Assembly (NCBI RefSeq): GCF_026004075.1
Contig: NZ_BPIK01000001.1
Span: forward strand, 1,776,041 to 1,840,040
Direction of reading: 5' to 3'
Length of the DNA: 64,000 bases
From: Meiothermus sp.
GTDB lineage: Bacteria > Deinococcota > Deinococci > Deinococcales > Thermaceae
The notes below the pieces were generated by a model, which made no database searches, was not told the origin of the DNA, and saw only the letters and a program-made list of their open reading frames with translations. How positions within the stretch are numbered: the first letter of the stretch is position 1; every line of letters starts with the position of its first letter. Position numbers and translations under genes: made by a program. Positions 27,601-39,061 of the stretch are shown here, in pieces.

Positions 27601-28261
27601 GCAGGCCATGGCCGAGGAGTGGCTCGAGCCCGCGGTGGTCTACGGCTACTGGCCGGTGGCCTCGGACAAAAACGAGCTGATCGTCTTCGACCCCGAGTCC
27701 GGGGCCGAGCTGTTTCGTTTCAACTTCCCCCGCCAGATGGGAGCGGGTTCGCGCCATCTGTGCATCGCCGACTTCTTCCGCCCCCGCCATGCCCCTCCCA
27801 TCGGGAACGAGCCGGACTGGTTCCCGCCGGCGGCCTGGGCCAACGGGGCGCGCGACGTGCTGGCCGCCCAGGTGGTCACCATGGGCCGCAAGGTCTCGCA
27901 GGTGGCCCAGGAGCTGTTCCAGTCCGATGCCTACCAGGACTACCTCTACCTGCACGGCTTCTCGGTGGAGATGGCTGAGGCCCTGGCCGAGTACTGGCAC
28001 AAGCGCATCCGCCAGCAGCTCGACATCGCCCAGGACGACGCCACCAGCTTAGAAGAACTCTTCCGCCAGGGCTACCAGGGCAGCCGCTACAGCTTCGGCT
28101 ACCCGGCCTGCCCCCGCTTAGAAGACCAGAAGTACCTGCAAGAGCTTCTGCAGTGGCAGGAGATTGGGGTGGAGCTGAGCGAGGAGTACCAGCTTCACCC
28201 CGAGCAGTCCACCAGCGCCATTGTGGTGCACCACCCGGCGGCCAAGTATTTCAATCTTTAG
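24614..28261 (+). CDS. metH: Cobalamin-dependent methionine synthase
   Basis: Transfers a methyl group from methyl-THF to homocysteine via methylcobalamin. All four modules are present in 1215 residues. The homocysteine-binding barrel (about 35-340) has GAMGTEIFKYN and zinc Cys in VGGCCGTGPEHI. The pterin domain (about 370-610) has GERTNATGSKKFRELL. The B12 domain (about 670-890) has DVHDIGKNL with the lower-ligand His near residue 774. The AdoMet reactivation domain (about 950-1205) follows. The start is GTG at 24614. The 3' end overlaps the convergent purK gene by 11 bp. The sequence is rich in CTCGAG. Confidence 0.96.
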   Translation: MSVNAPRDFFAEQGIEPLTAQGYAQEARAQAFPYLKALSERVLVYDGAMGTEIFKYNLSDADFGGPQYSGCPEILNRTRPDVIAAIHRSYLEAGADVIETNSFGSMPHVLAEYGLESEAEDLAYAAAQIARGEADKKSAEKPRFVAGSLGPGTKLISLGQIGWKEMFESYRTAARGLIRGGVDLLIIETCQDVLQVRCAVLACRQAMQDLGREVPLQVQVTFEATGTLLVGSDDGAALTVLESLPVDVVGINCAVGPDLMDTHVRHFCQHSTRWVACLPNAGLPRNEGGRAVFDLTPAELARWQLKFVQEYGLNVVGGCCGTGPEHIRALVEALGGCHAPQLRGSQQKQTPSPLGQVASLYQSVPLRQDTGILIVGERTNATGSKKFRELLFAGDFDGMEALAAEQVAEGAHVLDVSVAWTGRDEVRDMREVLKRFATSVPIPIMVDTTQPEVMEEALEHLGGRAILNSINLEDGLEKFDRVAALAKRHGAALVALTIDEDKEAGMAKTVERKVEIALRMYERLTQVHGIAGESILFDLLTFPITQGDEDTRKLALWTIEGIRQLRQQLPEVGFILGISNVSFGLSPQARVVLNSVFLDECIQAGLTAAILNAGKILPINQISQEQYQLALDLIYDRRQFGPAGEVTHDPLFAFVDYFTKNKVDKTQARDPLAGLELEERLKKRIIEGRKVGLEADLEQALAKYSPVEIINQILLEGMKVVGDLFGAGKMQLPFVLQAAETMKAAVRYLEPRMEKLEGVHKGTLVIATVKGDVHDIGKNLVDIILSNNGYKVVNLGIKKPIEEILAAVEEHQPDAVGMSGLLVKSTVVMKENLEYMAARGISLPVLLGGAALNRHYVENDLRQTYATGPVYYASDAFDGLQLMEELTGHAPPRLTSREVSGHKYKTAYEILQEKLMAGSEYIPSNTPPAPRIPRPPFWGRRVVDKSELEVGVISRYVNKNALFRGQWGFRKGEMSQPEYEAYLERLAEPMFEEMVLQAMAEEWLEPAVVYGYWPVASDKNELIVFDPESGAELFRFNFPRQMGAGSRHLCIADFFRPRHAPPIGNEPDWFPPAAWANGARDVLAAQVVTMGRKVSQVAQELFQSDAYQDYLYLHGFSVEMAEALAEYWHKRIRQQLDIAQDDATSLEELFRQGYQGSRYSFGYPACPRLEDQKYLQELLQWQEIGVELSEEYQLHPEQSTSAIVVHHPAAKYFNL

Positions 28262-29351
28262 TTTCCGCCAGCACCGCCTCGAGCCGGCCCAGGTGGGCCT
28301 CGAGCGCCTCGGGGGTATCGGCCCGCAGGGTGATGTGCCCCACCTTGCGCCCGGGGCGCACCTCCTTGCCGTACCAGTGCAGGTGGGCCCCCGGAATTTC
28401 CAGCACCCGCGCAAAGTCGGGCTTCAGGCCAATCAGGTTCAGCATGGCCGCCTGGCCGCGGGGGGCGGTGGCGCCCAGCGGCAGGCCCAGAATGGCCCGC
28501 AGGTGGTTTTCGAACTGGCTGGTCTCGGCCCCCTCGATGGTCCAGTGGCCGGAGTTGTGCACCCGTGGGGCCATCTCGTTGGCCCAGAGGGTGCCCTCCA
28601 CCTCGAATAACTCAATAGCCAGAACCCCCACGTAGTCCAGCTTCTCCAGCACCCGCGTGGCGATGCGCTCGGCCTCGTGCTGCAAGCGGGCCGGGGTGGC
28701 CGGGGCGGGGGCCCGGCTCTTGCGCAGAATGCCCCCGGTGTGCTGGTTCTCCACCAGCGGGTAGAAGGCCATCTGCCCGCGGGTGTTCCGCACCGCCAGG
28801 ATGGAAAGCTCGCGCTCGAAGGGCACGAAGGCTTCTAGAATCAGGGGCTGCCCGCCCAGAAGGGCCCAGGCCGCCTCGAGGTCGGCGGGCGAGCGCAGGA
28901 GCTTCTGCCCCTTGCCGTCGTAGCCCAGCCGCCGGGTCTTGAGCAGGGCCGGCCATCCGGTGCGCTCGAGGCCGTCCAGCAGGTCGTTGCGGGTCAGCAC
29001 CGGGTAAAACAGGGGGGTGGGGATGCCCAGCCCCTGAAAAAAGGTCTTTTCGGCCACCCGATCCTGGGCCACCTCCAGCGCCCCGGGCGGGGGGTACACC
29101 GGCCGGTGCTGGGCCAGCCGGGCCGCCGCCGCCACCGGTACGTTCTCAAACTCGTAGGTCAGGAGCGAGAGCCCCTCGGCAAACCGATCCAGCGCCCCTT
29201 GGTCGGCATAGTCGCCCACCACCAGCTCGGCCAGTTGGCCCGCCGGGGCCTCGGCCGCCGTGTCAAAAAACCTGAACCCAAGCCCCAGCGGATACCCCGC
29301 CAAAGCCAGCATACGTCCCAGTTGTCCACCGCCCAGAACCCCTATCTGCAC
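28251..29351 (-). CDS. purK: N5-carboxyaminoimidazole ribonucleotide synthase PurK
   Basis: ATP-grasp enzyme of purine synthesis that carboxylates AIR with bicarbonate; its product is the substrate of PurE. The 366 residues start QIGVLGGGQLGRMLALAGYPLG (glycine-rich loop) and contain RRLGYDGKGQ near residue 147, plus FEVEGTLWANEMAPRVHNSGHWTIEG near residue 260, all family-typical. The start is GTG at 29351 with a TANNNT hexamer 6 nt upstream. It is separated from purE by the GGDEF-EAL gene, all on the same strand. The stop lies inside the end of metH. Confidence 0.95.
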   Translation of the reverse strand: MQIGVLGGGQLGRMLALAGYPLGLGFRFFDTAAEAPAGQLAELVVGDYADQGALDRFAEGLSLLTYEFENVPVAAAARLAQHRPVYPPPGALEVAQDRVAEKTFFQGLGIPTPLFYPVLTRNDLLDGLERTGWPALLKTRRLGYDGKGQKLLRSPADLEAAWALLGGQPLILEAFVPFERELSILAVRNTRGQMAFYPLVENQHTGGILRKSRAPAPATPARLQHEAERIATRVLEKLDYVGVLAIELFEVEGTLWANEMAPRVHNSGHWTIEGAETSQFENHLRAILGLPLGATAPRGQAAMLNLIGLKPDFARVLEIPGAHLHWYGKEVRPGRKVGHITLRADTPEALEAHLGRLEAVLAETKD

Positions 29352-29405: not shown

Positions 29406-32400
29406 TCAATCCAGCCTTGGCACCGGAAATAACAGACGCTCAATGGGCTGCTGCGGCGGCCAGTCGGCAGCAGGCACCGGCTGGCCCACCAGATAACCCT
29501 GCACCAGGTCGCAACCGTTATTGTGCAGCCACACGAGCTGCTCCTGGGTCTCGACCCCCTCGGCCACCACCTCGGCCTCGAGGCTGTGGGCCAGGTCAAT
29601 GGCCGCTCGGATCAGTTTCTCGTCCCGCACGCTGGTACCCAGGTAACTGATAAAGCTACGGTCTATTTTGAGCCGATCGAGGGGCAGTTGGCGCAAATAG
29701 CCCAGCGAGGCATAACCGCTGCCAAAGTCGTCAATGGCAATCTGTACCCCCAGGGCTTTGAACCTGCTGAGGGCCTCTCGAGCCTGCTCCGGCTCGCGCA
29801 GCAACACGCTCTCGGTGACCTCGAGGGTGAGCCACCGAGGGTCGGTTTCCGCTCGGCGCAGTGTCTCCAACAGTTCGCGCACCACCTCGGGTTGTATCAG
29901 CGACTGGGTCGAGATGTTCACGGCGAGGCGGTAATTGAAACCCTTCTGCTGCCAGCGCTTAAGCTGCAACAGGCCTTTTTGTAAAGCCAGCAGATCCATC
30001 TGCTCAATCAAGTGCACCTCTTCGGCCAGAGGAACAAAATCCGATGCCCGCAAGGTAGCTCCCTGATGGGGCCAACACAAGAGGGCTTCGGCTTCCTCTA
30101 TACGCCCTGCCCGAAGATGCCAGATGGGCTGGTACAAGAGCTCAAACTGCTGCTCCTGGATAGCCTTACGCATCGCCGCTTCAAATTGCAGCCGTTCCTC
30201 GGTATATGGGCTTGTAGCCGCATCATAGATAACCACCCGGCTGCCTGAGTCCTTGGCCTGGTACATGGCAATGTCGGCTACTTTCAATAGCTCAACAAAA
30301 GTGCGACCATCTTTGGGAAAACTGGCAATTCCCACACTTACCCCTAGACTGGGCAGTTTATAGGCAGGGTTGCTCGATCCTAGGGTGCTGCGTATCGCCC
30401 TGGACATACGGAACGCCACCTGCCGGGCCTGTTCTGCATCGGTATTGAACAAAATGCAGGCGAACTCATCGCCGCCCAGGCGGGCCAGCATATCCTCGGA
30501 ACGCAGTTGTTTGCTCAGTACTTGCGATACTTCTACTAAAAGCTCATCGCCTACATCGTGGCCCAGTGTGTCATTTACGGTTTTGAAGTTATCGAGGTCG
30601 AGGTACAGGAGGCTCACCGGTATCTCCCGCTGGCTGGCCTTGTACAGCAGTTCTTCGGCTGCTCGCCGCAATGCCCGGCGGTTGGGTAGCTTGGTGAGTT
30701 CGTCGTGGTAGGCCATATACTCCACATAAGCCTGCTGTTGCTTGCGCTCGCTGATGTCGCGCATCCCCACCACGATGCCCTGCAAAGCCCCCTCTTCGCT
30801 CCAAACAACATTGACCAGGCTCTCGATCCACACCGCATGCCCGTCCTTGTGCCTGCAAGCACACTCGGCGGTATAGACCCCCTTTTCCCGGATGGCCCGC
30901 AAACCCTCTCGCCGAACCTTAGACCACTGGGCCCTGTCCGTCAGGATGGAAGCAGGCTTACCCACCAGTTCCTCGGGGCGGTAGCCCAGCACCTGTTCAA
31001 CCGAGGGGGTGACGTACTGCACCCTGGCCCAGGGATCGAGCAACAGCACCACGTCCCGGATGGAGTTGGTAATCTGGCGCAAACGGTACTCCCGCTCCCG
31101 CAAGGCCTCTTCGGCCCGACGTCGTTCGGTCACATCACGTCCATTCACCACACTTCCAACAGGGTTTCCTTGCTCGTCGAAGATAAAGTTGACCAGGGTG
31201 TCAATCCAGACATAGTGCCCCTCTGCATGGCGATAGCGGCCCTCGAGCTGGTACGAGCCAGCTCCAGCCAGACTTTGTTCAGCCAAGTGCATGGCTTCCT
31301 CGCGGTCTTCGGCGGCCAGGTAATCGAAGGCAAGCTGGCCCAGCATCTGATCCGGGTGATACCCCAGCAATCGCTCAACCGAAGGCGTTACATAGCGTAA
31401 ATAGCCCCGTGGATCGGTGAGAGCGACCACGTCCTGCATGGCGTTAGTGATCTGCCGCAGCATCTGCTCGCTCTTGCGCAGTTGTTCCTCGGCCTCGCGG
31501 CGGTCTTGAATCTGCCGTGCTCCCAGCACCATACGGACGGGGTTGCCCTCGAGGTCGTAGACAAAGTCGAGCTGGGTCTCGAGCCAGACCTTCGAGCCAT
31601 CCTTGTGGTGGTGCTGGTACTCCAGCCGCAAGGGCCGTCTTCCCTCTCGCGCAGCCCGCACCGCCTCCAGCACCCAGTTGCGGTCTTCTGGTTCAAAAAA
31701 TTCGAAAGCGTTGCGGCCTACCAACTCCTGTGGATCGTAGCCCAGCGCCGCCTGCACCGAGGGGGTAACGTACTCGATCAGGCCCTTCGGATTCAGCATC
31801 ATGACAACATCGCGCATCGAGTTGGTCAGCTCGCGCAAGCGCTGCTCGCTTTCCCTTACGGCTTGCTCAGCCAAGTAGCGCTCGGTCACATCCCGCAGGC
31901 CGACCACTACACCCTGAAAAACCCCTTCGGGCGAAAAAAGAAAACTGATGGAAGCTTCCAGGATGCGCCGTTCGCCGTCGGGGCGTTGATACGAAAAGCC
32001 CACCAGGGCCACATGGCTTTTAGGCGTGGCCTCGAGCACCATTTGGCTAAAGATGCGCTGTTGCTCAGTATCTAGCAGGCTATAAACCGAACGGCCTACC
32101 ACTTCTTCGGGCCGCCAGCCCGCCACCGTATATACCGATGGGGTCGCGTACTGGATCTGGAGGTTAGCATCCGCCAACAAAACCACGTCTCGCACGGTCT
32201 CGGCAATCTGGCGCAGCACCTTTTCGCTCTGCAAATGCTCTCTTTCGGTCTGTTCCAGGGCCGTAACGTCTTGCCCAATGGAGGTAATTCCTACCACCCG
32301 CCCCTGCCCATCCCGCAGCACCGTGTTATTCCACACCACCGCCCGCTGCTCGCCGCTCCGGGTCAGAATGCGGTTTTTGTACTGGGGCATGATTGTCCCC

Positions 32401-32780
32401 TGGGCTATCTGCTGCTCAAAAGCTGCTTTTAGATTGTCGTCCTCAGGCACAAACAGCTCGAACCAGTCACGCCCGGCTATTTGAGGCCAGCTCCAGCCGG
32501 TGAGCTCGAGCAGACACCGGTTACAAAACATAATGCGACCTTCCCGGTTCAGTCTGACCACCAGCAACGCCATTTCCTCAAAGGCTCGGTCGGTCTGGCG
32601 ATCGTCCTGCAAATCCCAAAAGCCACCCGACCCCCGGTACAACCAACCCAGCAGCCCCAACAACAGCAAGGCGGTTAGGGCCAAGCCCCACAAGCGAGTC
32701 TCTATACTCCACGCCACCACGAGCAAAGCCAGCAGCGCTGCCGCCGGCCATGCCCAGTCCACGGTGCGTTGGCTACTCAC
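29406..32780 (-). CDS. PAS(x5)-GGDEF-EAL cyclic-di-GMP protein
   Basis: Membrane-anchored cyclic-di-GMP enzyme of 1124 residues. Two membrane helices lie within residues 10-48, then five PAS domains (about 70-185, 190-315, 318-440, 443-565, 568-690), of which the last three are very similar (LRQITNxMxDVV, YVTPSVExxLGY). GGDEF (about 700-855) is intact: LGGDEF near residue 766 with an RSED inhibitory site 5 residues before it. EAL (about 870-1115) keeps most metal and catalytic residues ([30 protein letters not shown]), but the signature reads EALLCW rather than ExLxR. Start GTG at 32780. It sits between purE and purK. The cyclase is predicted active and the phosphodiesterase uncertain. Confidence 0.93.
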
Positions 32781-32838: not shown

Positions 32839-33336
32839 TCATCGGGGATCGGGTTCGGCCAGCACCGCCTCGGTCTGGGTTTTGCGATACTGTGCTAAGG
32901 CTGCTTTGCACGGGGGGTATTTGTTGGCCAGAATGCTCACGGCCAGCAACGCGGCATTGATCGCGCCGGCACGGCCAATTGCCAGGGTACCCACCGGCAC
33001 CCCGGCCGGCATCTGCACGATGGACAGGAGCGAGTCCAGCCCTTTGAGGCTCCTGGACTCCACCGGTACCCCCAGCACCGGCAGGCTGGTTTTGGCCGCG
33101 GTCATGCCGGGCAGGTGCGCCGCGCCCCCGGCCCCGGCGATGATGACCTCGAGGCCCCGCGCCTCGGCTTGCTCGGCGTATTCAAACAGCAAATCCGGGG
33201 TACGGTGCGCCGAGACCACCCGCACCTCGTAGGGCACCTGTAGCTGCTCTAAGGTCTGTGCAGCGTGCTGCATGGTTTCCCAGTCCGACTTCGAGCCCAT
33301 GATCAGGCCCACCAGGGGGTGAAGGGGTAGCTCCAT
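32839..33336 (-). CDS. purE: N5-carboxyaminoimidazole ribonucleotide mutase PurE
   Basis: Converts N5-CAIR to CAIR in purine synthesis. The 165 residues carry the class I PurE signatures: [12 protein letters not shown] near residue 11, VSAHRTPD near residue 41, [16 protein letters not shown] near residue 68 and [14 protein letters not shown] near residue 108. The start [18 protein letters not shown] is an ATG with TAAACT 8 nt upstream. PurK, its partner enzyme, lies beyond the intervening GGDEF-EAL gene on the same strand. Confidence 0.96.
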
Positions 33337-33501
33337 GTGGCCTCAGTTTATCGCGCAGGCAGCACTTCGGCGAACCGGCACGCCCGCCTATCGACTGGGT
33401 GGCCTGACCTGATTTAGGGCTGACAAAAACTGTATGGACGGGTTAAGGTCGAGGATTCCTTGCGCATCCCAAGATCCAGGTTGACCTTAGAATCGTATAG
33501 C

Positions 33502-34470
33502 ATGGACACCCTGGAGCTACTTCGCGCCAACCTGCTCTCCCCTGCCGTGCTGGCCTTTGCCCTGGGCATTGTGGCTACCCTGGTCAAGTCCGATTTAAAA
33601 ATTCCCGATGCGCTTTATACCACCCTTTCGATCTACCTGCTGCTCTCCATCGGGCTCAAAGGTGGGGCTGCCCTTGCCACCACGCCCTTCGCCGAAGTAT
33701 GGAAACCCGCATTGGCTACGCTGGCTTTGAGCATAATCACCCCGCTCCTCTCGTATACCACCCTGCGCCGCCTGGGGCGCTTTGACGTGGTCAACGCGGC
33801 GGCCATTGCCGCTCACTATGGCTCGGTCTCAGCGGTTACCTTCATTGCCGCCACCACCTTCATGCAAGCGGCAAAGCAGCCTGTGGAGGGGTTCTTGCCA
33901 ACCCTGGTAGCCATTTTGGAGGTTCCGGCTATCGTGATCGCCCTGCTGATTGCCCGTCGCAGCCTGGGAGGGGGCTCACTGGGTGAAGCGGTACGGGAAA
34001 TTTTCGCCGGGAAAAGCGTTTTGCTGCTGGTAGGGGGTTCGGTGATGGGGTTCCTGACCGGGCCCGAGGGTCTCAAGCAGGTAGCAGCGGTGTTCGTGGA
34101 GCCTTTTCGCGGTGTGCTGGTGCTGTTTTTGCTCGAGCTGGGGATGATAGCCGCCAAGCGCCTGCGCGACTTGCGATCGGTGGGGGGCTTCTTGGTTGGT
34201 TTTGGGATTGCCATGCCGCTGATTCAGGGCAGCCTGGGGGTATGGCTGGGCAGCCTGGCCGGCATGTCGGTGGGGGGGGCGATGGTGCTGGGCGCCATGG
34301 CCGCGAGCGCCTCGTATATTGCTGCCCCGGCCGCGGTGCGCATCGCCCTGCCCCAGGCCAACCCCAGCTACTATCTCACCGCCTCGTTGGGCATTACCTT
34401 TCCCTTCAATCTGACCCTGGGCATCCCCATCTATTACGCTATTTCTCGCTGGCTGCACGGAGGTAGTTAA
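33502..34470 (+). CDS. sbtA: Sodium-dependent bicarbonate transporter family protein SbtA
   Basis: Inner-membrane protein of the SbtA family (DUF897), 322 residues with about ten hydrophobic segments in two inverted halves. Phrases typical of the family are LLSIGLKGGAALA near residue 50, AAIAAHYGSVSAVTF near residue 98, ILEVPAIVIALL near residue 150, LELGMIAAKRLRDL near residue 212 and SASYIAAPAAVR near residue 272. Cyanobacterial members import bicarbonate with sodium. The ATG at 33502 is preferred to upstream starts because it gives MDTLELLRANLLSPAVLAF. The stop overlaps the sbtB start by one base, and sbtB encodes its known regulator type. The transported ion in this organism is inferred. 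Confidence 0.88.
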   Translation: MDTLELLRANLLSPAVLAFALGIVATLVKSDLKIPDALYTTLSIYLLLSIGLKGGAALATTPFAEVWKPALATLALSIITPLLSYTTLRRLGRFDVVNAAAIAAHYGSVSAVTFIAATTFMQAAKQPVEGFLPTLVAILEVPAIVIALLIARRSLGGGSLGEAVREIFAGKSVLLLVGGSVMGFLTGPEGLKQVAAVFVEPFRGVLVLFLLELGMIAAKRLRDLRSVGGFLVGFGIAMPLIQGSLGVWLGSLAGMSVGGAMVLGAMAASASYIAAPAAVRIALPQANPSYYLTASLGITFPFNLTLGIPIYYAISRWLHGGS

Positions 34471-34772
34471 TGGCCCTGGTTTCACTCAAGCTGGTTACCA
34501 TCATCGCCGAGGGGTTTCTGGAAGAAAAGCTGGTGCGAGACATCAAGAAGCTTGGGGCCAAAGGCTACACCATCACGGCTGCCCGGGGTGAGGGCAGCCG
34601 GGGGGTGCGGGCCAGCGAGTGGGAAGGAAGCAACATCCGCCTGGAAACCATCGTAAGCCCCGCCGTGGCCGAAAAAATCCTGAACCACCTGGCCGAGGTG
34701 TATTTTGCCAACTATGCGGTGATTGCCTTTGTGGAAAACGTCGAGGTGGTGCGGGGCGATAAATACACCTAG
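34470..34772 (+). CDS. sbtB: PII-like signalling protein SbtB
   Basis: 100-residue member of the PII-like superfamily. In cyanobacteria SbtB trimers bind adenine nucleotides including cAMP and gate SbtA. Family features are KLVTIIAEGFLEEKLVRDIKKLGAKGYT at the start, ARGEGSRGVRASEWEG as the T-loop region (about 39-54) and NIRLETIVSPAVAEKIL. The C-terminus ends GDKYT and lacks the CGPxGC redox tail of many cyanobacterial SbtB proteins. Its ATG shares an A with the sbtA stop codon (TAATG), so the two are translationally coupled. Confidence 0.88.
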   Translation: MALVSLKLVTIIAEGFLEEKLVRDIKKLGAKGYTITAARGEGSRGVRASEWEGSNIRLETIVSPAVAEKILNHLAEVYFANYAVIAFVENVEVVRGDKYT

Positions 34773-36171: not shown

Positions 36172-37995
36172 ATGAACGTTCTGGAACGACAGCAGGAGGC
36201 GGGCCTGGCAACCCCTACACCCATCATCAACGACTTTTCGCTAGTGGTAGCCACCGCCAACGGAACCGGAAGTCAGACCGCAAACCTCACGCTGTTGCGG
36301 TCTTTTTTTAAGCTGGGCATACCGGTTCACGGCAAGAACATCTTTCCTTCCAACATCCAGGGGCTTCCTACCTGGTATCACATCCGGGTGAGCCACGAGG
36401 GCTACATTGCCCGCAAGCCCTCGGAAATTCTGGTGGCCTTCAACCCCGCCACCGCCCACGAAGACCTGCAGGAGCTACCCAGCGGCGGGGTATGTATCTA
36501 CAATGCCGATCTCAAGAACCTGCCCAAGCGCAACGACATCACCTATTACCCGGTTCCGGTTGGCGAGCTCATCGCTGGGATTGACGTGCCGGTCAAGCGC
36601 AAGCCCTACATCGCCAACATGACCTACGTGGGGGTGGTGGCCTGGATGCTGGGGGTGCCGCTGGAGGTGGTGGAAGAAGCCCTGGGTGCGCAGTTCGACT
36701 ACCGCCAAAAGCTGGTGGAAAGCAATATGCAGGTGGTGCGCCGGGCCCACGCCTGGGCCACCGAGAACCTGCACAAACAAGACCCGTTCCGCCTCGAGCC
36801 CATGAACAAGACCGAGGGCCTGATCATCATGACCGGCAACGAGGCCGGGGCCTTAGGGGCGGTGTTCGGCGGGGTGAGCGTGGCGGCCTGGTACCCCATC
36901 ACCCCCTCCACCAGCTTTATGGATGCCCTGCGGGAGTTTTTGCCCAAACTCCGCAAGGATGAAAACGGCAAACCCACCTACACCGTGATTCAGGCCGAGG
37001 ACGAGCTGGCCGCCGCCGGCATTATCATGGGCGCGGGCTGGGCCGGGGCCCGGGCCCTTACCGCCACCAGCGGCCCTGGTATCAGCCTGATGGCCGAGTT
37101 CGTCAGCTACGGCTACTTCACCGAGATTCCCGCGGTGATCTGGGATATCCAGCGGGTCGGCCCCAGCACTGGCCTGCCCACCCGCACCAGCCAGGGGGAT
37201 GTCTCCTTTGCCTACACCCTGGGTCACGGCGACACCAAACACCCCATCCTGTTCCCCTCCTCCATCGAGGAATGCTTCGAGTTTGGCTGGAAGTCGCTGG
37301 ACCTGGCCGAGCAGCTCCAGACCCCGGTGTTTGTACTCTCCGATCTGGATCTGGGCATGAACAACTGGATGGGCAAACCCTTTGAGTACCCCGACCAGCC
37401 CATGCAGCGCGGCAAGGTGCTGAGCGCCGAGCAGCTCGAGGCCCTGGGCAGCTTCGCCCGCTACAAGGACGTGGACGGCGACGGCATTCCCTACCGTACC
37501 CTGCCCGGCACCCCCCACCCCCTGGCCGCCTACTTTACCCGCGGCAGCGGCCACAACGAACAGGCCCAGTACAGCGAGCGGGCCGACGACTGGGAGCGCA
37601 ACATGGCCCGTCTGGCCCGCAAGTTCGAGACCGCCCGCAACCTGGTGCCGGCTCCCGCAGTAGACCACCACCCCGCCGCCCGGGTGGGCCTCATCGCCTA
37701 CGGCACCACCCGCTATGCCATCGAGGAAGCCCGCGACCGGCTGGCCTCCCAGCTTCCCACCAGCTTTTTGCGCCTGCGGGCCCTGCCCATCAACCAGCAG
37801 GTGCGCGATTTTGTGGCGGCCCACGAGCGGGTCTACGTAATCGAGCTCAACCGCGACGGGCAGATGTGCAGCATTCTCCAGGCCGAGATGCCCGATTATG
37901 CTGCCCGTATTCGCTCAATTGCCCACCTGGACGGGCTGCCTCTCACGGCCCGCTGGGTACAAGAACGTCTGTTGCAAGAAGAGGCCAGCGCCTAA
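36172..37995 (+). CDS. korA: 2-oxoacid:ferredoxin oxidoreductase, fused gamma/alpha subunit
   Basis: Alpha subunit of a 2-oxoacid (probably 2-oxoglutarate) ferredoxin oxidoreductase, 607 residues. The N-terminal gamma domain (about 1-195; LVVATANGTGSQTANLTLL, NIQGLPTWYHIRVSHEGY) is fused to the pyrimidine-binding domain (about 215-430; ITPSTSFMD, QAEDELAAAGIIMGAGWAGARALTATSGPG) and a transketolase-C-like domain. No 4Fe-4S ferredoxin motif is present. CAGGAGG stands 5 nt before the ATG. korB follows after 22 bp. Together they decarboxylate a 2-oxoacid to acyl-CoA and reduce ferredoxin, as an alternative to the dehydrogenase complex. Confidence 0.93.
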   Translation: MNVLERQQEAGLATPTPIINDFSLVVATANGTGSQTANLTLLRSFFKLGIPVHGKNIFPSNIQGLPTWYHIRVSHEGYIARKPSEILVAFNPATAHEDLQELPSGGVCIYNADLKNLPKRNDITYYPVPVGELIAGIDVPVKRKPYIANMTYVGVVAWMLGVPLEVVEEALGAQFDYRQKLVESNMQVVRRAHAWATENLHKQDPFRLEPMNKTEGLIIMTGNEAGALGAVFGGVSVAAWYPITPSTSFMDALREFLPKLRKDENGKPTYTVIQAEDELAAAGIIMGAGWAGARALTATSGPGISLMAEFVSYGYFTEIPAVIWDIQRVGPSTGLPTRTSQGDVSFAYTLGHGDTKHPILFPSSIEECFEFGWKSLDLAEQLQTPVFVLSDLDLGMNNWMGKPFEYPDQPMQRGKVLSAEQLEALGSFARYKDVDGDGIPYRTLPGTPHPLAAYFTRGSGHNEQAQYSERADDWERNMARLARKFETARNLVPAPAVDHHPAARVGLIAYGTTRYAIEEARDRLASQLPTSFLRLRALPINQQVRDFVAAHERVYVIELNRDGQMCSILQAEMPDYAARIRSIAHLDGLPLTARWVQERLLQEEASA

Positions 37996-38017
37996 ACCCA
38001 AGCCAGAGGTTAGTTTT

Positions 38018-39061
38018 ATGGAAAACCCCAGTCCAGTCCCGCCCATCAAGCTCAACGCGGTGGGCCTCAGCAAAAAAGATTACGACGGAAGCCCCAGCAC
38101 CCTGTGCAAGGGCTGCGGCCACAACTCCATCGCCAGCCAGGTGGTGCAGGTCGGCTTCGAGCTCAACCTACGGCCCCACGAAATTATCAAGCTTTCGGGC
38201 ATCGGCTGTTCGTCCAAGTCGCCGGCCTATTTTTTGGGCATGTCCCACGGCTTCAACGCCCTGCACGGGCGGATGCCCAGCGTAGCTACAGGAGCCCTGC
38301 TGGCCAACCACACCTTGAAAGCCATTGGGGTCTCGGGCGACGGCGATACCGGCAGCATTGGGATGGGGCAGTTTAAGCACCTGATGCGCCGCAATGTGCG
38401 GATGGTTTACGTCGTGGAGAACAACGGCGTGTACGGCCTCACCAAGGGGCAGTTCTCGGCCACCGCGGAAGAGGGCCTCGAGCTCAAATACGCCGGCCAC
38501 AACGAGTTTCCCCCGGTAGACCTGTGCATGGAGGCCATCATCGCCGGGTGCGGCTTTGTGGCCCGCAGCTTTGCCGGCGACGCCAAGCAGGTACGCGAGC
38601 TGCTCAAGGCCGCCCTCTCCCACCGGGGTACCGCCCTGCTCGACATCATCAGCCCCTGCGTGGCCTTCAACAACGAGGACGACAGCCCCAAGAGCTACAG
38701 CTACGGCACCAAGCACGAGCAACCCCTGCACGAGCTGGGTTTCATCCCCCACGCCGAGGAAATTTCCATCGAGCCCTTAGAGCCCGGCGAGTTCCGTACG
38801 GTGCGGCTGCACGACGGCTCCCTGATTAGCCTGCGCAACCTGGGCCACGACTACGACCCCACCAACAAGCTAGCAGCCCTGGAGCGCCTCCAGCGGGCCC
38901 AGGAAACCGGGGAGTTCATTACCGGCCTGATCTACTACAACCCCGACCGGCCCAGCCTGGCCGAGCTCGAGGGCCTGAGCACCCCCCTGGCCCAGCTTTC
39001 CCCCGAACAACTGCGCCCCAGCCAGGCCGCTCTGGAGCAGTTGTTGCAGTCCTATCGTTGA
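38018..39061 (+). CDS. korB: 2-oxoacid:ferredoxin oxidoreductase, beta subunit
   Basis: Thiamine-diphosphate-binding subunit partnering KorA, 347 residues. Cluster Cys appear in STLCKGCGHNSIA near residue 27, with GIGCSSKSPAY near residue 62 giving a third and SPCVAFNN near residue 212 a fourth. The TPP motif is GDGDTGSIGMGQFKH near residue 107, ending in NNGVYGLTKGQ. The ATG at 38018 is preferred to frames reading back into korA because the family starts here; AGAGG lies about 11 nt upstream. It is separated by 28 bp from the convergent YdcF-type gene. Confidence 0.93.
   Translation: MENPSPVPPIKLNAVGLSKKDYDGSPSTLCKGCGHNSIASQVVQVGFELNLRPHEIIKLSGIGCSSKSPAYFLGMSHGFNALHGRMPSVATGALLANHTLKAIGVSGDGDTGSIGMGQFKHLMRRNVRMVYVVENNGVYGLTKGQFSATAEEGLELKYAGHNEFPPVDLCMEAIIAGCGFVARSFAGDAKQVRELLKAALSHRGTALLDIISPCVAFNNEDDSPKSYSYGTKHEQPLHELGFIPHAEEISIEPLEPGEFRTVRLHDGSLISLRNLGHDYDPTNKLAALERLQRAQETGEFITGLIYYNPDRPSLAELEGLSTPLAQLSPEQLRPSQAALEQLLQSYR

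Follow-up and report, generated by a model that had tools for sequence, protein, structure and literature searches.

An SbtA-SbtB pair in Meiothermus and its recurrent linkage to the purine genes purE and purK

SbtB, the PII-like partner of the bicarbonate transporter SbtA, has been studied almost wholly in cyanobacteria and hardly in organisms that lack a carbon-concentrating mechanism. In SbtA of Synechocystis, bicarbonate has been modelled in contact with S114, Y140, S324 and S327, with main-chain oxygens as the contacts of Na+, and replacement of any of the four bicarbonate contacts by alanine left about 10-40% of transport (PMC8352866). Association of the two Synechocystis proteins is favoured by AMP and hindered by cAMP or c-di-AMP, and SbtBs lacking the C-terminal CGPxGC tail are thought to read the adenylate charge only, according to sections of PMC10991534 and PMC13249358; passages of the latter also record that the field disagrees on the effect of SbtB, taken either as inhibition of import or as prevention of leakage. 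With any of six cyanobacterial SbtAs, carbonic-anhydrase-deficient E. coli was able to grow in air; of five SbtA-SbtB pairs, four lost uptake when SbtB was present (sections of PMC4275256). MpsAB and carbonic anhydrase are interchangeable in staphylococci and show a one-or-other pattern in Firmicutes (PMC8552792), and a similar pattern of SbtA and cytoplasmic carbonic anhydrase in some archaea is described in parts of PMC10880623, where PurK is also noted to use bicarbonate and cyanobacterial purK mutants to require high CO2.

The locus described here lies in a 64,000-nucleotide stretch of DNA from Meiothermus sp., a hot-spring bacterium, hereafter the window. On its forward strand, sbtA (33502-34470, 322 aa), encoding a member of the Na+-dependent bicarbonate transporter family, begins with the ATG at 33502 and ends with the TAA at 34468-34470, and sbtB (34470-34772, 100 aa), encoding a PII-like regulator, begins with the ATG at 34470 and ends with a TAG whose last base is 34772, the two genes sharing one base, the A of TAATG. 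ORF finding also allows sbtA to start at a TTG at 33460; the ATG is preferred because the codon aligned with it is ATG or GTG in 30 of 31 sequences compared (the remaining one is a base off) and because a -10-like TAGAAT, read by eye at 33488-33493, stands 8 nt ahead of it. This putative -10 box is part of the 165 bp (33337-33501) between sbtA and the divergent purE, in which TAAACT (the complement of 33345-33350), likewise picked out by eye, may be the -10 box of purE, 8 nt from its start codon. Leaderless promoters with this -10 form occur in Thermus and Deinococcus. A promoter scan needing two hexamers found none in the window, and the search for RNA elements there returned nothing except two tRNAs.

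SbtA scores 381.5 bits against PF05982 (Sbt_1; TC 2.A.83), with a cut-off of 27, and SbtB 85.5 bits against PF00543 (P-II), with a cut-off of 25; no NCBIfam model exceeded its own cut-off for either protein. Searches of solved structures with phmmer matched SbtA to Synechocystis SbtA (7cye, E 3.8e-30) and SbtB to TTHA0516 (2cz4, E 1.8e-39), ahead of the cyanobacterial SbtBs (SbtB7001, E 1.5e-12; Synechocystis SbtB, E 4e-10). The top five Foldseek matches of the predicted SbtA structure (pLDDT 88.5) are all SbtA (TMq 0.82-0.90), and the model shares the 5+5 inverted-repeat fold of solved SbtA. By sequence and predicted fold, the window pair is a genuine SbtA-SbtB. The overlapping pair proposed in the initial annotation is borne out by the coordinates, by Pfam and by solved homologues of both proteins, and its probable function as a bicarbonate importer with a PII-like regulator is supported by the Pfam, structure-database and Foldseek matches.

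The substrate site departs from that of Synechocystis. In Synechocystis numbering, with the window residue last, the alignment reads F110Y, G111G, A112S, S114S, Y140V, A320A, S322S, S324S, D325Y and S327A, so that two of the four modelled bicarbonate contacts are kept (S114, S324) and two are changed (Y140 to V, S327 to A). The changes at or by the site (Y140V, D325Y, S327A), an identity to Synechocystis SbtA of 31% and the losses of transport that alanine caused at each contact there (to about 10-40%; PMC8352866) could all be accommodated if this subfamily carried a different small anion. Such a substrate is very unlikely, however: all 29 SbtAs encoded beside carboxysome or RuBisCO genes have S114, S324, Y325 and A327 and lack Y140, beta-carbonic anhydrase recurs as a neighbour of sbtA (9 of the best 80 loci among named genomes; 3 of 19 and 3 of 40 drawn loci, though 0 of 58, hence 6 of 117), and Na+ is contacted through main-chain oxygens (PMC8352866). 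Since carboxysome- and RuBisCO-linked relatives carry the same altered site, the case for another substrate from these residues is weakened and bicarbonate is the likeliest substrate. Among relatives, tyrosine occupies position 325 in 193 of 197 sequences and alanine position 327 in 186 of 197. The window SbtA belongs to a second, widespread SbtA subfamily, which most likely also serves bicarbonate. Three relatives, L187, L188 and L283 (58-60% identical to Synechocystis SbtA), do carry the Synechocystis signature; they come from the draws on the phylum of L053 and the class of L099.

Among 111 genomes of the phylum, SbtA was found in 62, SbtB in 60 and both in 59, and the two genes overlap or lie 3-72 bp apart in 58 fetched genomes with both genes and in the window. 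Co-presence in 59 of 62 and the tight spacing argue that the pairing is not due to chance. Wide stretches were available for the SbtA genomes apart from our own genome, G002 and G095, with G101 represented by a 3-kb contig only. Real loss is doubtful for the SbtA-less G039, an 84% complete genome in which purE is missing as well, and two independent losses within one genus are unsupported, as G028 and G034 perhaps form one clade (purE tree, 92/93). Two genomes hold further copies: in G043 the gene immediately upstream of sbtA codes for another, divergent member of Sbt_1 (L019:427-1302; 42% identical, 75.3 bits), and G041 has a second sbtA-sbtB pair (L169:447-1889; 35% and 33% identical to the window proteins).

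Beyond the phylum, a scan of named genomes gave 572 loci, of which the best 80, a set that favours close relatives, are spread over Chloroflexota, Planctomycetota, Verrucomicrobiota, Actinomycetota, proteobacteria and others, with sbtB within 6 kb in 52. Relatives were present in 16 of 230 genomes drawn from Verrucomicrobiota (the phylum of L053), 45 of 294 from Planctomycetota (the phylum of L041) and 54 of 369 from the class of L099. Since SbtA-like proteins in heterotrophs are already in print (sections of PMC10117731), as are SbtA-SbtB pairs outside cyanobacteria (sections of PMC10117731 and PMC10880623), the location of the pair outside cyanobacteria, which the initial annotation stressed, is true but not itself new: SbtA-SbtB of this kind is known and widespread, and the window pair is by kind an ordinary member. 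Near sbtA, 9 of 117 drawn loci (for example L195:5128-5481) also have a gene for a small winged-helix regulator, which was seen in named loci too.

The interesting part of the locus is its recurrent link to purEK. On the reverse strand lie purE (32839-33336; N5-CAIR mutase, TIGR01162, 218.1 bits) and purK (28251-29351; N5-CAIR synthase, NF004679, 463.1 bits, TIGR01161, 393.2 bits), the product of the latter using bicarbonate and ATP. The two are separated by a gene whose 1124-aa product combines several PAS domains with GGDEF and EAL domains (29406-32780, reverse strand), and downstream of sbtAB are korAB-like genes for the alpha and beta subunits of a 2-oxoacid:acceptor oxidoreductase (36172-39061, forward strand), korA being downstream of sbtAB in 10 of 14 fetched loci of the same genus as well. 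Across Thermaceae, purE is found 40-5868 bp from sbtAB in 44 of 46 fetched loci; the remaining two are accounted for by a short contig and a contig edge. Of 28 genomes of genera g4 and g5, 26 have purE divergent from sbtA, the aligned parts of the two genes lying 47-56 bp apart, and in both genomes of genus g2 sbtAB is placed between purK and purE. In the fetched g4/g5 (Thermus) loci purK and purE are close together; in a single exception, purK is about 2.3 kb away. Elsewhere in the phylum, the 13 loci fetched from outside Thermaceae, some of them on short contigs, showed neither purE nor purK beside sbtAB.

Linkage to purE or purK recurs far outside the family. Among the best 80 of the 572 named loci, purE lies within 6 kb in 13 (four of them Thermaceae) and purK in 11. 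With the seeds removed, purE/purK accompany sbtA in 10 of 39 drawn loci of Planctomycetota, in 3 of 57 of the class of L099 and in 0 of 18 of Verrucomicrobiota. Pooled, this gives 13 linked loci of 114 against 0.4-0.7 expected, an excess of about 17- to 35-fold (Poisson P <= 1.5e-12, on the assumption of independent loci, which holds only in part). An unsupervised ranking of neighbours over 117 drawn loci placed purK (12 loci) and purE (10) among the best 28 clusters, after sbtA (117), LysR regulators (48) and one sbtB cluster (21) and ahead of an ABC ATPase (7); it covers families present in all three drawn groups and in at least 7 loci. The seeds (G111, G112, G113) were kept in this ranking and left out of the chance test. 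The Planctomycetota set comprised 40 stretches from 53 rows, without G613 and without the split or short matches in G561, G583, G602:C177, G433, G458, G624:C221 and G607:C266, and the fragment G182:C13 was left out of the fetched Verrucomicrobiota loci. Eight PurE and PurK proteins, from five linked loci and one mixed locus, each exceeded an NCBIfam purE or purK cut-off. One locus, L264:1-8635, combines sbtA-sbtB and purE-purK with a gene for a carboxysome-type shell protein.

The closeness could be an inherited gene order devoid of functional meaning, beside an importer that tops up general carboxylation. The linkage in Thermaceae perhaps goes back to one ancestral event, and 101 of the 114 drawn loci are without purEK linkage. 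This is nevertheless quite unlikely, given the excess over chance and the variety of the linked loci, which show several gene orders (E>K>A>B>, A>B>E>K>, K>E>A>B> and K<E<A>B>) and, over 29 loci, SbtAs in 14 clusters at 60% identity; orders and clusters together speak for repeated assembly. No report of an sbtAB-purEK linkage was found in the literature searched, which is not proof of absence; the purK passages of PMC10880623 draw no gene link between purK and SbtA. The suggestion that PurK is a likely bicarbonate consumer, made from closeness in a single window, gains support from the counts for Thermaceae (44 of 46) and for drawn loci (13 of 114), and this recurrence of neighbouring genes suggests that the PurK idea is worth testing.

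PurK had also been proposed on the ground that no carboxysome or RuBisCO gene was visible and that the pair would therefore feed other carboxylases. No RuBisCO large subunit is encoded in the window (PF00016), so the observation stands at that scale. However, both PF00016 matches of the genome lie outside it: a weak, RuBisCO-like one (76.5 bits) and, on the other contig, a full-length large-subunit match of 468.5 bits (G000:C2:636296-637219, in a frame of 484 aa). Genes of the CBB cycle in four Meiothermus species and autotrophy in Thermus are published in parts of PMC13019369, and the terms bicarbonate, carbonic anhydrase and Sbt did not turn up when the main text of this 2026 paper on Thermaceae autotrophy was searched for them. 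The argument from missing RuBisCO fails, and a role outside carbon fixation cannot be deduced from it at genome scale.

The pair might then mainly serve RuBisCO, as the carbon-uptake arm of facultative autotrophy, with the purEK neighbours of little weight. Besides the match in our own genome, all 25 Thermaceae genomes with a RuBisCO match above 200 bits carry SbtA, 28 of 58 drawn loci of the class of L099 adjoin carboxysome or RuBisCO small-subunit genes, and on a Cereibacter plasmid (L300:4995-8737) a gene for an SbtA 46% identical to that of the window, a single LysR gene and form I RuBisCO stand in a row, without an annotated sbtB. Yet 22 of the 47 SbtA-bearing Thermaceae have no RuBisCO match above 200 bits, in 21 of these 22 the fetched stretch includes purE, and RuBisCO uses CO2, a beta-carbonic anhydrase match being absent from 23 of the 25 genomes with RuBisCO. 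The two functions are also apart in Allomeiothermus silvanus, whose RuBisCO gene of like score is annotated as form I and sits in a plasmid cluster with rbcS, cbbX, prk, rpe and fba; sbtA is not among the annotated genes in the 25 kb of this region examined, and in G023 (A. silvanus, name inferred) sbtAB lies between purK and purE. A mainly RuBisCO-directed pair is unlikely on this evidence. The presence of the importer and its purEK linkage are independent of RuBisCO, although it may help the enzyme where one is encoded.

Carbonic anhydrase offers a second line of evidence. Our own genome (3.25 Mb, two contigs) gave no match to PF00484, PF00194 or PF10070. Over the 111 genomes, 10 have SbtA and beta-carbonic anhydrase, 52 SbtA alone, 30 the anhydrase alone and 19 neither (Fisher 1.1e-6, uncorrected for kinship; outside Thermaceae alone the anti-association is weak, p 0.08). 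One of the 19 has DabA and one an alpha-carbonic anhydrase; DabA was matched in 3 of the 111, our own genome not among them. The search covered the alpha and beta classes, and divergent beta forms can score under the cut-off; three beta matches under it (G005, G007, G008) were counted as absent. In Thermaceae, 42 of 47 SbtA genomes have no beta-carbonic anhydrase match, and one of the five matches counted with SbtA (G029) has an internal stop codon. Of the three SbtA-less Thermaceae genomes, two have a beta-carbonic anhydrase and the third is incomplete and without purE; the two anhydrase-bearing genomes are of the same genus and perhaps one lineage, so the SbtA-less state in the family may have arisen once. 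Exclusion is not a rule, because beta-carbonic anhydrase adjoins sbtA in some other bacteria. In G008, the reading frame that follows sbtB codes for a divergent protein resembling beta-carbonic anhydrase (L298:2965-3888; PF00484, 22.9 bits, cut-off 25.7).

We favour the view, with a probability of about 0.62, that sbtAB encodes a bicarbonate importer and its gate, supplying PurK and other biosynthetic carboxylases in a Meiothermus-type bacterium in which no alpha- or beta-carbonic anhydrase was found. SbtA would import bicarbonate in a Na+-coupled manner, as its family and modelled fold suggest, and the imported bicarbonate would feed PurK, the consumer most consistently tied to the pair, along with other biosynthetic carboxylases; the same uptake may, in addition, increase the inorganic carbon available to the RuBisCO of the genome when this is in use. 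By analogy with Synechocystis, SbtB would act as a trimeric PII-like gate whose AMP-bound form inserts its T-loop into the cytoplasmic cleft of SbtA and plugs the carrier, and other adenyl nucleotides would free SbtA. Of the initial annotation as a whole, the importer with a PII-like regulator and PurK as its likely consumer remain, the reasoning from missing RuBisCO does not, and the expectation of different control is retained in part.

That expectation concerned the tail. The window SbtB has the T-loop segment and is without the CGPxGC redox tail, as the alignment confirms. The T-loop stretch, GEGSRGVRASEWEGSN, has 21 residues against 26 in SbtB7001 (5 shorter), and it is 21 or 22 residues long in 98 of 138 aligned sequences. 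The tail is absent from all 136 related non-cyanobacterial SbtBs as well, and only about half of 460 cyanobacterial SbtBs have it according to passages of PMC10991534, so its absence is normal and the tail does not define SbtB. While control may differ where the tail is missing, and the window SbtB should sense the adenylate state only, its loss as a special trait is rejected.

AMP is an end product of the pathway to which PurK belongs, and a gate that closes as AMP rises, if AMP gating holds here, would suggest feedback. On this basis sbtAB in heterotrophs might be a purine-pathway module, in which SbtA supplies the bicarbonate of PurK and AMP-bound SbtB shuts SbtA when AMP is plentiful, its carbon-concentrating use in cyanobacteria then being a specialised form of an older feedback valve on biosynthetic carboxylation. 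We regard this as a tentative and rather doubtful extension of the importer-and-gate reading. Thermus is genetically tractable. The purEK tie thus offers a specific and cheap test there, and the importer would fill a gap in the account of Thermaceae autotrophy.

The pair can finally be set beside the described systems. SbtA-SbtB of Synechocystis sp. PCC 6803 (7CYE, 7CYF, 7EGK, 7EGL, 8ZOR) resembles it in family, fold, S114, S324 and the sbtA-sbtB gene order, described there as an operon (PMC8352866), whereas the window pair differs in its 31% SbtA identity, in Y140V, D325Y and S327A, in a shorter central loop and in the missing CGPxGC tail. TTHA0516 of Thermus thermophilus (2cz4), the closest solved relative of the window SbtB, aligns with it without gaps over 99 residues; it is labelled only hypothetical protein in 2cz4, and no paper naming it was found in the literature searched. 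MpsAB/DabAB belong to other protein families and share the inferred role, a supply of inorganic carbon replacing carbonic anhydrase (PMC8552792). SbtA2-SbtB2 of marine Synechococcus is described as a second SbtA-SbtB subfamily too (sections of PMC13249358). SbtA linked to alpha-carboxysomes in gammaproteobacteria has the same binding-site signature as the window SbtA (YGSS/x/SSYA) at 39-51% identity and is accompanied by sbtB in all 29 such loci; its neighbours are carboxysome or RuBisCO genes.
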